Shown here: piece by piece, positions 593 through 60,712 of the stretch
Position numbering within the stretch: the first letter of the stretch is position 1
Layout: the number at the start of each line of letters is the position of its first letter
DNA from: Symbiodinium sp. CCMP2592
Lineage: Eukaryota > Sar > Dinophyceae > Suessiales > Symbiodiniaceae
Length of the DNA: 64,000 nucleotides
Reading direction: 5' to 3'
Assembly (NCBI GenBank): GCA_905221615.1
Contig: CAJNDT010006024.1
Coordinates: forward strand, 1,543,017-1,607,016
Notes under the pieces: model-generated
Databases searched by the model: none
The model's input: the letters and a program-made list of their open reading frames with translations, nothing else
Told to the model about the DNA's origin: nothing
Position numbers and translations under genes: made by a program

Positions 593-726
593 ACTGTTGA
601 TGATATAAAAAAATAAATAAATATAATATATATATATATATATATATCCTGCATTGCCTTAAGGACCGTAGACTACGGGAATAATACATTCCTTATGGGT
701 AAGGCAGGATTTATATCATCAACAGT
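593..726. repeat. Family B palindrome, copy B1
   Basis: The ends ACTGTTGATGATAT and ATATCATCAACAGT are inverted repeats. Inside them CCTGCATTGCCTTAAGG faces TTATGGGTAAGGCAGG. A (TA)n tract is inserted in the left arm. The same ends and core recur at 32.4, 36.9 and 60.1 kb. Confidence 0.8.
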
Positions 727-800
727 AGAACGCCTAAACCCTAAACCCTAAAGATCCCTTATAGAACCCTTAGAGGAACCCCTTGAAGGAACCCTTGACT

Positions 801-899
801 TACAGTAAACCCCATGAACTTGGAAACCGGATAAAGGCCAAATAGTGCTGGGATTCCGGATTGAGGCTAAAAGGTTTCCAACTTTTCGGCTTCTACTGC
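801..899. repeat. Family J palindrome, copy J1
   Basis: The ends TACAGTA and TTCTACTGC are followed inward by GTTGGAAACC-like and GGTTTCCAAC segments. The central text AAGGCCAAATAGTGCTGGGA is shared exactly with copy J2 at 3723-3839. Confidence 0.75.
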
Positions 900-959
900 A
901 GATCATCAACCGTAGCACTCACCTACCGGCCCTGGAGCAAATCGAAGCAACCATCCACA

Positions 960-1210
960 CACATTGACATAAGGGCCTTAATAATTAGACCAGAGTTCCT
1001 TTTAAAGGATTACAATTGGGATCTATAATGGGGTTCTATAATATGGGGGCCTCAATAATTAGACTAGAGTTCCTTTTAAAGGGCTCCTTTTACAGGATTG
1101 CAATAAGGGATCTAAGATAGGGTTCTATAATATAGGGGCCTTAACAATTAATGGAATAGAGTTTCGGTGCCCCAAATAATAAAACTATGAAAAAGAACTT
1201 CCAAAATAGT
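960..1210. repeat. Cluster of family I elements (three overlapping copies)
   Basis: GGGCCT(C/T)A(A)TAATTAGA(A/C) followed by TAGAGTT recurs three times (near 970, 1045 and 1136). It is mixed with TTTAAAGG(A/G) and GGATCTA(T/A) motifs. Family I copies with both arms intact are at 39.4 and 48.0 kb. This cluster looks like nested or partly tandem copies. Confidence 0.6.
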
Positions 1211-1790
1211 ATAGGTAATTATTAACCCTGAACAACCTATCTTTTCAATCTTGAGGACTTGTACACGGAAATGATAACCAGGTAGGGTTTAAGAGCTTAA
1301 GGCTTTGTATGGCCCTGAATAGCTAGAATAGGGTTCCTGTTGAAGGAATCTATAAGGGTTTAACAGCTGCTACTATCCGGCTATGAGTGTTAAAGCCTCC
1401 ATTCTTCGAACAGGCTTCTAGATGGGGGTATACTCCTAAGGTTCGGGGCTAGAAAGGGGACTTGCTAGTAACCATTCCGATCCCTGCATACCAACAACAG
1501 AACCTGCAAGCTTCAGCCTTCGATCCCAAAACGCAGGATGCCCGCCACGCAGTCTGATATGATTCGGCGGTGTCGGGAGTTCTGCAAGCCTATAAGCCCT
1601 AAACCTTCATGACTCAGAATTGCACTGAACTCCGAAAGCCGGCTTTGGATGAGGGCTCCCACAGATTATGTGTGTATATATATATTTTTTTTTAATTTAT
1701 ATTTATATTTATACTTATTGATTAATTCATTTGGTGTATCTGTCTCTTTATCTGTAATTAGAACGTTATACTAAAAGAAAGGGCATGGCG
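1211..1790. other. No gene or clear repeat seen
   Basis: Mixed sequence with short TTAAGG/CCTTAA motifs and a (TA)4 plus T-run near 1676-1700. I find no convincing open frame and no palindrome with arms over 20 bp. Confidence 0.4.
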
Positions 1791-1917
1791 GTTTAAAGTC
1801 GGCTGGGGTAACATGCCCCGGCTCGGATTGGGGGGGTGCAGTGTGCAAGGTTGCTGGGAGCTGTTCGTGCTTCTCTTTGGGATGCCGATGGATAGGCAAT
1901 CTGTCCGTTCAGGGATT

Positions 1918-2033
1918 AACCCAAGGGTCCAAAGGACCCAACAATACGGTACCTGGGTTTAGGATAGTAGTTATGTAGGTTCACATTTGGGTGAGTATAT
2001 GATTAATTATTGGGTACTTGGACCCTTGGGGTT
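1918..2033. repeat. Family C palindrome, copy C1
   Basis: The ends AACCCAAGGGTCC and GGACCCTTGGGGTT are inverted repeats. Inside, ACCCAACAAT faces ATTATTGGGTACT. The diagnostic central text is AGGATAGTAGTTATGTAGGTT. Six further full or partial copies lie in the window. Confidence 0.85.
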
Positions 2034-2150
2034 ACTGTAGTCCATCACCTCCAACCGAAGGACTCTTGAACAGCGCCTAAGTTGTGAGACCTAGGTATCG
2101 TTGAAGGTTGCTGGGGCAGCTACTTATGAGCTTCTTGGCCGAACCACCCT

Positions 2151-2200
2151 TAATTCTAAACCTTAAGCCCTAAACCCCTAAACCCTAAAGCCTAAACCCT
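2151..2200. repeat. Telomere-like CCCTAAA block
   Basis: Degenerate CCCTAAA heptamers on the + strand (TAAACCTTAAGCCCTAAACC and so on). They are interstitial, not at a chromosome end, and mixed with 8-bp and 6-bp variants. Confidence 0.8.
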
Positions 2201-2611
2201 GCTCTTGGTTCTTCAGGTGCGCTTGTGGTTTCAATGGCTGAGGCCGACCATCCTGTCCACTGACTTATGAATTATGAAGCTGGGCATCACACGGTGCACC
2301 CCGTAAACCCAGAACCCTTCGCTCTACCAGGACCCCCCCCCCTCAAGTGCCCGTGAATAGAACCCTTATGGTGATCAATAGTGGGTATTTAGGGCAACAT
2401 CGGTATCTCCCTTGTTGAAACAGGATTTCGGGTGTTCCAAACCGTAGGAGCAAGAAGCGAAACGAATGAGTCACAGTTAGCCCAGGTTGGACTTTGAACA
2501 TCTGTCTGTTCGAGAATAAGGTCATCCTGGGCCCAACAAGGGGGAACACAACATGTCATAACGGCCACCCCAACGATCAAACCCTAAACTCTAAACCCCA
2601 AACCCCAACAT

Positions 2612-2716
2612 GTGGGTGGTTCTCAAAACTATGGTTCCTTTTTGGATCCCTAAGATAATACGGCACCTTATATTTAGGGTACCCAAAAAAGGACCATAAA
2701 TTTGACAACCATCCGT
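2612..2716. repeat. Family F palindrome, copy F1
   Basis: GTGGGTGGTTCTCAAAA at the left faces TTTTGACAACCATCC-like sequence at the right. Inside, GGTTCCTTTTTGGATCCCTAA faces TTAGGGTACCCAAAAAAGGACC. A better-preserved copy is at 49.0 kb. Confidence 0.75.
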
Positions 2717-58482: not shown

Positions 58483-59086
58483 AACATCGAGGCCGGTCTA
58501 GGTGCTGCCCAGTTTGTCCAAAGCTGCGACTTCTCTGCTGCTGAGGGTTTACTCTTGAAGCCAAAATCCTATAAACCCTAGACCCTAAACTAAACATCCC
58601 TAAACCCTAATCTTTTTGGGTCCCGTAATATAAATAAACCATCCAATCCCCTACATTCAGCCTGGGGGACTTCGGGGTTCTCAGTCTGTATAAAGAATAA
58701 AAGCAGGTTGTTTTTGGGTTGGGGTTTATTGTTAAGGTTTGGTTTAGGGCCTAAAGTTTAGAGGTTAAGATTTAGGGTTCGGTGGTGAGGCTTTTAGGGA
58801 GGGGAAGTGTGCCGCTTGGTGCTGCCATTTGCGCTGTTTTAGGCTCCGTTTTGCAGGGCATCGATTTAGATTCAACGGTCGAGGTGCCTATGCTTTCCAC
58901 ACACTGTAGAGGCCTGAGAAACTAAGTAGAACGGGGTTCGAACCCCAAGCGCTAGTATTGCTAAGTCTTCGGGCATCTATATCATTTGGCAACTTAAATG
59001 TCAAGCACGTGCGTCCACCACACCCGGGAGCCATCAACCCCCAAACTGAGCGTCCTCCGCACTACCACAGAAAAAAGGTTTAGGTA

Positions 59087-59194
59087 AGAAGCTGCCCCCA
59101 CCCTGTAATAGTGACCATAAGGCTTATAAAAATATTATATTAGGGCCCTAGTATATTCCTATTATACCACTATTACAGGGTGGGGGCAGCTTCT
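59087..59194. repeat. Palindrome M with 27-bp perfect arms
   Basis: AGAAGCTGCCCCCACCCTGT with AATAGTG faces CACTATTACAGGGTGGGGGC with AGCTTCT. Inner arms are AT-rich around TTATATTAGGGCCC. Single copy in the window. Confidence 0.95.
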
Positions 59195-59209
59195 AAGATT
59201 TAGGTTTTT

Positions 59210-59810
59210 GTTTTCCGGTTTTGATCGCCCTCCCACACGACAAACAAAAAGCCAAGTAGAAGCACCCATACCAAAAAAAAGAAATACCTGAGGCACAGCA
59301 TCAATACACACCATGGCCTAAAGGAACTAAGAGGTCCTCACAACGAAGTGGCATAGTCATAGCGGACAGAAGATGAGATGCAAGCATCCACACAAGAAGC
59401 CGGAGAAACACAAGAAGACAAAGGAACGACAGACTAAAAGCACATGAGGTGCAGGCATCAAGCCACAACAAAACCAATAGTAATAATCAAGGTGGTTCGC
59501 AAACCAGGAAACTGGCAACAGATACCATAACCCAATATGGCTGGGAGAGCCGCCAAACAAAAAAGGTAACATAACACAGTTTAAAACTAACAAGCAACGC
59601 CGCAGGAAAACAACAAACACACAGAGACAGCTGTAACACACACACACACACATTAGTGAACACATGTGTATCTACATATAGACCTCTTTTCTATACCAAC
59701 GTAAATCAAAAAAAACTTAACCCTTAGTATCATTATTATTGAAAACAATGCTACACATGGTCTTATCCAAATGAGTATTGATATTGGCACGAATAACTCT
59801 ATTCAAGCAT
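59210..59810. other. A-rich stretch without a gene
   Basis: The + strand is A/C-rich (CAAACAAAAAGCC, CCAAAAAAAAGAAATACC), so the - strand gives a cysteine/leucine-rich frame of 102 codons that looks like composition only. A (CA)n tract lies at 59637-59653. Confidence 0.45.
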
Positions 59811-59899
59811 TTGAATTCGTAGTAGTAATATCAATGCTTAAAGCAAAGTCAGTATCAGTATCAATATCAACACCAATATAAATACTATTGCTTTGATGA

Positions 59900-60003
59900 T
59901 ATATATATATATATATAGAATATATATATATATATATATATATATATATATATATGCATAAGCATACATACATATATATATACATATATATATATATATA
60001 TAA
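59900..60003. repeat. (TA)n compound microsatellite
   Basis: Three TA tracts separated by GAA, GCATAAGCATACATACA and ACATA. Confidence 0.95.
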
Positions 60004-60113
60004 AGATATCTGTAACTGGGGTGCAGGCATCTTGGTAGTCCAGACTCAGATCGATGCAGGGGAACTCGTGGATGGTGACGTCCAGGAGGACGCGGATCTG
60101 CCTCTCCGGGTTC

Positions 60114-60310
60114 TACGGTTGATGATGTAAGTCCTGGGGTTCCGTTAAAGGGATCTTGTAGGGTATCTGTAAGGGGTCCTCTAAGGGATCTACAGGGGGT
60201 TCAGGGTTTAGGGATAATATAAATCCTGCATTACCCATAATAAGGAAGATACCATAGCTCTCATAGTCTAGGGCCATTAAGGTAATGCAGGACTTCTATC
60301 ATCAATCGTA
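60114..60310. repeat. Family B palindrome, copy B4, left arm interrupted
   Basis: TACGGTTGATGATGTAAGTC with CTG faces CAGGACTTCTATCATCAATC with GTA. The inner arm ATCCTGCATTACCCATAATA faces GGCCATTAAGGTAATGCAGG. Between the end and the inner arm on the left lies about 75 bp of GGGATCT/TTTAGGG-type repeat absent from other B copies. Confidence 0.85.
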
Positions 60311-60319
60311 CTGCTACGC

Positions 60320-60480
60320 CTTTAGGGTTGAGGGTTTAGGGGTTAGGGTGTAAGGGATTAGGGGTTAGGGTGTTGGGGTTCAGGGTTTTAGGGCCTTTGG
60401 GGTTTAGGGTTTTATGGGGTCTAGGGTTCAGGGTGTAGGGTTCAGGAATTTAGGGTTCCGGGTTTAGGGTTCAGGGTTTC
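60320..60480. repeat. TTTAGGG block
   Basis: GGGTTGAGGGTTTAGGGGTT, GGGTGTAAGGGATTAGGGG and GGGTTCAGGG variants, G-strand orientation. Confidence 0.8.
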
Positions 60481-60654
60481 CCAGAGACACCAAGGGGCGA
60501 GCTAATTATGAGGAATAGACCTTGGGTTTTAATGGGAGCCCTAGTAAGAAATTAAAGGGTTGGGGAGTCTGGGTTACCTGGACCCTAAGAAACCTACCTT
60601 GTTAGGGTTCCTTAATATGATTTCAGGGTTCAGGGTTTAAGAGTCCAGGTCCAA

Positions 60655-60712
60655 TCCCTGAAGGTCCAACGGACCCAATAACAAGGCACTTGGTTCCAGG
60701 ATAGCAGAACTC
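60655..60712. repeat. Family C half element, copy C7
   Basis: GAAGGTCCAACGGACCCAAT with AACAAGGCACTTGGTTCCAG and GATAGCAG matches the left half of C1/C3. The right half is missing. Confidence 0.6.

Follow-up and report, generated by a model that had tools for sequence, protein, structure and literature searches.

The short palindromic elements that crowd parts of a 64,000-nucleotide stretch of the Symbiodinium sp. CCMP2592 genome (assembly GCA_905221615.1, contig CAJNDT010006024.1, positions 1,543,017 to 1,607,016, forward strand; the whole stretch is called the window below) are very probably old copies of several families of non-autonomous DNA transposons resembling miniature inverted-repeat transposable elements (MITEs), mostly about 107 bp long. 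This most likely reading is backed by the structure of the elements, by the spread of their families and, in families D and E and the palindrome J (D/E/J), by target-site duplications. We infer that it extends to families A, B, F, G, H, K, L and P and to the single hairpin M; it is least supported for family C. Three observations are added here to an initial annotation of this DNA: the shared length of about 107 bp, the covariation of the arms in families A and E, and the fine-scale independence of the elements from telomere-like tracts. What deserves following up is the matching of the arms, clear in A and weaker in E, together with the length that most families share.

Inverted repeats were sought over the entire window with a palindrome scan tolerating mismatches and small gaps, and five block-wise shuffles preserving local dinucleotide content served as the control. 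At a score of at least 26 the window contained 49 inverted repeats compared to 6 per shuffle (in all five shuffles); at a score of at least 34 the numbers were 33 compared to 0–1, and at a score of at least 38 they were 26 compared to 0. The 49 matches include microsatellites and a 241-bp satellite (42.8–43.5 kb), which are not elements of this kind. The strongest hairpins (58374–58482, 48792–48907, 49014–49125, 6985–7090 and 59087–59194) gave single-strand DNA fold z scores of −9 to −13.4, and looser types gave −5.7 (B), −2.8 (C) and −2.0 (D); these z scores (range −2.0 to −13.4) come from eight copies, one each of families A to G plus M, with none of H. Three copies (A39235, A45792 and E31237, each named by family and first position) are degraded and make poor hairpins, as do the C, F, G and P part copies, which lack one arm.

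For the family census each palindrome was compared with the window by blastn, alignments were made with MAFFT, and nhmmer profiles were run across the whole window. We obtained 54 places, belonging to 11 multi-copy families and one single hairpin (M): eight each in P and A, seven in C, five in D, four each in B, L, F, G and E, three in H, two in K and one in M. Three places are marginal (P969, E value 3e-4; D36422, 3e-4; P54052, 6e-4), and J (33722–33872), a palindrome at 6005–6157 and the degraded E copy at 31237–31325 stand outside the 54. Length is at least 95 bp in 45 of the 54 places (median 107, range 95–131, with 34 of these 45 at 100–115 bp) and is near-equal in families with no detectable mutual similarity (for example A, B, G and M). 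Bigger cases carry inserts or lie outside the census (J, 151 bp; the 6005 palindrome, 153 bp; B60116, 193 bp). The arms are 27–50 bp long, and families A, E and F are palindromic over nearly their full length. Copies are dispersed and occur in both orientations, and the alignments keep the same family ends in unrelated flanks. The initial annotation had placed the inverted repeats correctly; it had also reported divergence of several percent or more within families, and local alignments give about 9–30%, the exception being the G/H pairs (6.46 and 6.99 kb) inside a tandem duplication of 95% identity. Its count of at least twelve families depends on where the cut is made, because the C, D and E profiles weakly cross-detect, as do those of F and H. 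The elements are as follows, with strand, flanks where relevant, and the analyses on which each entry rests.

3486–3594 (+), family D element, flanks TTT/TTT; alignment, profile, flank tests
33520–33622 (+), family D element, flanks CAT/CAT; alignment, profile, flank tests, DNA fold
50604–50718 (−), family D element, flanks AGT/AGT (window orientation); alignment, profile, flank tests
53260–53372 (+), family D element, flanks GAA/CAA, imperfect; alignment, profile, flank tests
36422–36469 (−), possible family D fragment, marginal; profile E 3e-4
35423–35532 (+), family E near-full palindrome, flanks TTT/TTT if the final base is taken as an altered G; alignment, profile, flank tests
48795–48903 (+), family E near-full palindrome, flanks TAT/TAT; alignment, profile, flank tests, DNA fold
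50259–50365 (+), family E near-full palindrome, flanks GTA/AAA, unduplicated; alignment, profile, flank tests
31237–31325 (+), family E degraded copy, flanks TTT/TTT; alignment, flank tests
9303–9389 (−), family E copy, ends lost; blastn, profile
33722–33872 (+), element J, palindrome CCCTAAGGG...CCCTTAGGG, flanks TTA/TTA; CCCTAAA tract in the loop at 33773–33830, 96% matches
4928–5036 (+), family A palindrome; alignment, profile
32197–32305 (+), family A palindrome; alignment, profile
33283–33392 (+), family A palindrome; alignment, profile
50468–50577 (+), family A palindrome; alignment, profile
55879–55988 (+), family A palindrome; alignment, profile
58374–58482 (+), family A palindrome; alignment, profile, DNA fold (z −13.4)
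45792–45909 (−), family A degraded copy; alignment, profile
39235–39343 (+), family A degraded copy, left end lost; alignment, profile
594–725 (+), family B element, AT tract in left half, flanks TA/TA; alignment, profile, flank tests
32391–32495 (+), family B element, flanks TA/TA; alignment, profile, flank tests
36869–36972 (+), family B element, flanks AA/AA; alignment, profile, flank tests, DNA fold
60116–60308 (−), family B element, flanks TA/TA, left arm (window orientation) split by a degenerate telomere-like tract
1920–2030 (+), family C element; alignment, profile
29699–29805 (−), family C element; alignment, profile
40070–40181 (+), family C element; alignment, profile
41155–41261 (+), family C element; alignment, profile, DNA fold
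56735–56841 (−), family C element; alignment, profile
39350–39423 (−), family C fragment; profile
60660–60707 (+), family C fragment; profile
2611–2717 (+), family F palindrome; alignment, profile
49017–49122 (−), family F palindrome, flanks TA/TA; alignment, profile, DNA fold
10768–10846 (−), family F part copy; profile
29608–29652 (−), family F part copy; profile
6461–6566 (+), family G element; alignment, profile
6985–7090 (+), family G element, paired with 6461 in the tandem duplication; alignment, profile, DNA fold
40524–40638 (+), family G element; alignment, profile
37384–37452 (+), family G part copy; profile
6568–6667 (+), family H element, adjoins G; alignment, profile
7092–7189 (+), family H element, adjoins G; alignment, profile
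38498–38597 (−), family H element; alignment, profile
50092–50218 (−), family K element, 127 bp; blastn, profile
58067–58195 (+), family K element, 129 bp; blastn, profile
801–896 (+), family L element; profile
3723–3835 (+), family L element; profile
45592–45710 (−), family L element; profile
56596–56698 (+), family L element; profile
969–999 (+), family P fragment, marginal; profile E 3e-4
1042–1121 (+), family P part copy; profile
1131–1226 (+), family P element; profile
31650–31749 (−), family P element; profile
37667–37771 (+), family P element; profile
39429–39528 (+), family P element; profile
48007–48105 (+), family P element; profile
54052–54147 (−), possible family P copy, marginal; profile E 6e-4
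59087–59194 (+), element M, single in the window, 108 bp with perfect 27-bp arms; profile, DNA fold
6005–6157 (+), 153-bp palindrome with a TA microsatellite at its centre (6055–6119); its other profile matches in the window are AT repeats

The telomere-type tract of J may have been acquired within the hairpin, or the hairpin may have arisen around the tract. Judged by eye, the insert in the left arm of B60116 measures about 88 bp and is made up of degenerate repeats, telomere-like and GGGATCTA.

The D/E/J ends (CCC...GGG) were set from family alignments and the flanking bases were then compared. Perfect 3-bp direct repeats flank seven of nine copies (TTT, CAT, AGT, TTT, TAT, TTT and TTA), and inverted ones flank none of the nine; excluded were E9303, whose ends are lost, and D36422, a fragment. 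When the right flanks were permuted, with 49 end offsets allowed each time, none of 2000 permutations reached 7/9. The background of 3-bp flank agreement was 2.0% at random compartment places and 4/612 when both ends were slid together. Leaving out E35423 (edited last base) and the degraded E31237 gave 5/7 (P 7e-8). The proposal that these are MITEs is thus strengthened by the duplications, which also provide a handle for locating the transposase. The elements are too short to code for such an enzyme, and one presumably encoded elsewhere and not seen here would bind both matching ends and excise the element as a unit; the excised element would then be joined into a staggered cut, resulting, for D/E/J, in the 3-bp target duplication.

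MITEs are under about 600 bp. Like them, the window elements are short and non-coding, have terminal inverted repeats and form many multi-copy families (2–8 places per family, for 11 families in the window), and short target duplications are found in D/E/J (7/9) and not in C (0/5 at consensus ends), with ambiguous flanks in A, B, F, G and L. Unlike typical MITEs, A, E and F are palindromic nearly throughout, the arms covary in A and weakly in E, no autonomous partner is seen, and the elements are confined here to compartments rich in telomere repeats. Two known MITE groups do not fit D/E/J. PIF/Harbinger MITEs make a 3-bp duplication TWA, which fits only one of the seven (TTA at J), and CACTA (EnSpm) MITEs, which also make 3-bp duplications, have CACTA/CACTG ends whereas the D/E/J ends start CCC. 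Tc1/mariner MITEs duplicate TA; family B has TA/TA in three of four copies and AA/AA in one, TA being self-complementary. Foldback (FB) elements likewise consist mostly of inverted repeats, but have longer target duplications and internal tandem repeats, whereas the window elements are far shorter, have no internal tandem repeats that we could see and, in D/E/J, show 3-bp duplications.

Were copies descended from one palindrome to mutate independently, the similarity of the two arms within a copy should not exceed that of the same arm between copies. In family A (arm length 30) the mean arm score was 14.5 within copies, 9.0 between left arms and other copies' right arms, 8.2 between left arms and 9.6 between right arms, and the arm matching had P 0.0001–0.0002 (40320 permutations, all eight copies, degraded ones included). 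Family E gave P 0.042, the lowest value that the 24 permutations of four copies allow. Arm matching in B reached P 0.042 only at arm length 20, and that in L was not significant by the same permutation test, which covered families A to G and L; F and G, with two copies each, were uninformative. Double-sided changes were also in excess, with 13 cells in A (six of eight copies) compared to 5.9 ± 1.9 after shuffling (0/500 shuffles) and 9 in E (five copies, two partial) compared to 4.1 ± 1.6 (2/500). In A and E, where nearly the whole element is a single inverted repeat with arms more alike within a copy than between copies, we infer that the arms have been re-matched at the DNA level, which could occur through repair templated by the hairpin, conversion of one arm by the other, or selection, during transposition, for a single strand able to fold. 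If the pattern is genome-wide, the matched arms would constitute a natural experiment on the long-term correction of chromosomal inverted repeats.

Several results weigh against the MITE-like reading and the arm matching joined to it. Two of the nine D/E/J copies lack the duplication, D53260 (GAA/CAA) and E50259 (GTA/AAA), and both the ends and the grouping of D, E and J were fixed after the flanks had been viewed, which the offset permutation covers only partly. Family C has no 3-bp duplication at its consensus ends (0/5) and at most 1/5 at any offset (P 0.94). Family A has GAA/GAA in three of the seven copies tested (P 0.02; for 4-bp repeats P 0.001 at another offset; A39235 excluded for its lost left end), but these three have similar upstream sequence, so the repeat may belong to a common target or to the element itself. 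All four B copies have two-base repeats (P 0.001; TA three times and AA once), of which the TA repeats, being self-complementary, are indistinguishable from a longer inverted repeat, so that only B36869 (AA/AA) is informative. For F/G, four of five copies have 2-bp repeats (P 0.008) and three of five have 3-bp repeats (P 0.0025), only at offsets within the palindrome, where self-complementary bases yield direct repeats unaided, and two of those copies are one tandem duplication. Empty sites were not found in the window; of 66 candidate pairs, those listed (at most 60) sit in telomere-type arrays. The K elements, at 127–129 bp, are off the length of about 107 bp. A permutation test found no arm covariation in C or D; at arm length 20 the E arms scored 12.8 within copies and 13.3 between left arms; in the pair counting for A, two of five measures were reached by 57/500 and 405/500 shuffles; and the pair-count shuffles ignore the relatedness of the copies. 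Finally, no longer relative sharing the element ends was found, nor any transposase domain in the roughly 33 kb scanned in six frames against Pfam (1–10, 11–25.4, 25.3–30 and 41.4–45.5 kb), with 61.7–64 kb searched by open reading frame only and 10–11, 30–41.4 and 45.5–61.7 kb outside the scan; for those 33 kb this agrees with the earlier remark that no transposase is visible. Three matches fell below the Pfam cut-off and were rejected: PFF1_TM (E 9e-5) and Presenilin (0.014), both on a CT microsatellite at about 22.3–22.6 kb, and DUF2530 (E 0.012). Exact family patterns gave no match in IMG/VR and GTDB genomes, from which records of the source genome or a near one may be missing.

The strong DNA hairpins and the compensatory changes in A and E would also be expected of hairpin RNA genes, microRNA-like or structural, maintained by selection on a folded transcript. 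Under such selection, the transcribed strand should show arm mismatches leaning towards G-U. From 29 hairpins six were dropped (the satellite and microsatellite ones and one at 20.1 kb); the other 23 gave 21 G-U and 25 A-C mismatches, with no per-copy polarity (P 0.64). Family A does lean towards G-U, though not significantly, with 8 compared to 3 A-C (six rows, our own count, two-sided binomial 0.23) and, in the RNAalifold table, 16 compared to 6 cells (own count, binomial 0.05, in a structure chosen for pairing), and family E has 10 compared to 7. An earlier arm comparison (54 G-U, 53 A-C) was set aside, palindromic and non-palindromic parts having been mixed in it. Rfam gave no match at the gathering threshold. 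Covariation is lacking in C and D, and target duplications and degraded copies suit mobile elements. RNA genes, which the initial annotation had kept open, are therefore very unlikely, and we favour a DNA-level process over RNA for the arm matching, with an RNA role possible in family A on account of its lean to G-U.

The closest published behaviour that we met, without being a family match, is that of bacterial REPINs, which leave no target duplication and are moved by a Y1 transposase. In the available text of the REPIN report, spacer length and hairpin capacity are constrained and compensatory changes are common (PMC3116915). The window elements, in particular the near-full palindromes with compensatory changes, resemble them in being palindromic and in conserving hairpin capacity. 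REPINs are, as far as that text goes, doublets of bacterial repetitive extragenic palindromic (REP) sequences tied to RAYT transposases, whereas the window resembles eukaryotic nuclear DNA (TTTAGGG-type tracts, no tRNA or Rfam match, and an intron-like frame break at 63.2–63.4 kb judged by eye) and D/E/J, unlike REPINs, have target duplications. Mobility of a single-stranded hairpin by a Y1/HUH-type enzyme, REPIN-like and with selection for a foldable strand, would account for the palindromes. However, single-strand insertion of this type would leave no 3-bp duplication, the covarying E copies bear them (three of four tested), and no such gene was seen, so we consider this very unlikely. A rather unlikely extension of the transposon reading is that A and E are eukaryotic transposons, palindromic over their full length, whose cycle includes a single-stranded hairpin and the rewriting of one arm from its partner. 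Arms would thereby stay matched, and length would stay at about 107 bp across otherwise unrelated families, making these elements a eukaryotic counterpart of REPINs that leaves 3-bp duplications.

Introners provide a further comparison. Those of Amoebophrya are described, in the available text, as hairpin-forming, with inverted repeats of 8–20 nt, direct repeats of 3–5 nt and no family-specific motif (PMC7789003), and among introner families of other eukaryotes terminal inverted repeats are given for 72/177 and target-site duplications for 49/130 assessable ones (PMC9860276, available text). To the extent of these accounts, the window elements share with introners the hairpins, the inverted and short direct repeats and the lack of an internal transposase, but introners sit in introns, whereas the window elements have 27–50 bp arms, fall into distinct families and occupy blocks poor in open frames.

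The census places fall into three compartments, with 16 at 0–10.9 kb, 19 at 29.6–41.3 kb and 19 at 45.6–61.7 kb, and the profile search found none of the 54 in the remaining 25 kb of the window, so that the annotated placement in telomere-repeat-rich compartments is borne out. TTTAGGG/CCCTAAA 7-mers number 104, 66 and 58 in these compartments (expected 1.4, 1.5 and 2.1) and 6, 1 and 0 in the other blocks (expected 2.3, 0.6 and 0.3). TTTAGGG/TTTGGGG telomeres are reported in Amoebophrya and, as cited in the available text of the same work, in Dinophyceae (PMC7789003). The compartments hold few open reading frames: by our own count 6 of 42 frames of at least 120 amino acids lie wholly inside them, although they span 60% of the window, and no protein family confirms the gene status of the other blocks. 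A telomere-type tract lies within 15 bp of an element end in 3 of 55 elements (6.3 expected), and two tract pieces lie within elements compared to 4.9 expected. Elements and tracts are thus independent at a fine scale, and the link between them is the compartment rather than insertion into telomere-like DNA; telomere tracts as insertion target or as hairpin product are accordingly not supported at this scale. The same figures bear on an origin in place, through foldback synthesis, or template switching where telomere-like DNA had broken, followed by segmental duplication. The shared compartments, the tract in the loop of J, the splitting of B60116 by another and the tandem duplication of the G/H pair would suit such an origin, but the tracts are not near element ends, family ends are constant in unrelated flanks and 3-bp duplications lie at the consensus ends, making it very unlikely. 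For transposons, the compartment bias could mean that insertions are purged from the other blocks or that the compartments are a preferred target, which these data do not separate. If the pattern is genome-wide, small palindromic transposons would make up more than one tenth of the telomere-repeat-rich compartments (here about 5.4 of 39 kb).

Other repeats and a coding region were also seen in the window. In a 62-bp composite satellite (8112–8880, 12.9 copies), telomere-like GGGTTTAGGG repeats alternate with about 30 bp of non-telomeric sequence. Each unit of the 241-bp tandem satellite (42763–43524, about 3.2 copies) is a long inverted repeat with arms of about 92–106 bp. A 348-bp dispersed repeat is present at 4291–4638 and 37844–38191 with 97% identity, and a shorter third copy starts at 4054. 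A tRNA scan with the bacterial-code setting gave no match, and none of four exact patterns for dinoflagellate spliced-leader relics matched. On the reverse strand, 61697–64000 is an apparent intron-containing coding region, with a 100-N assembly gap at 61933–62032; it has no Pfam match above cut-off, and its protein at 61.7–63.3 kb may resemble dinoflagellate proteins. The best match among PDB sequences had E 0.009, which is not meaningful. At 60792–60926 lies an (AAC)n microsatellite of 44.7 copies with 98% matches.

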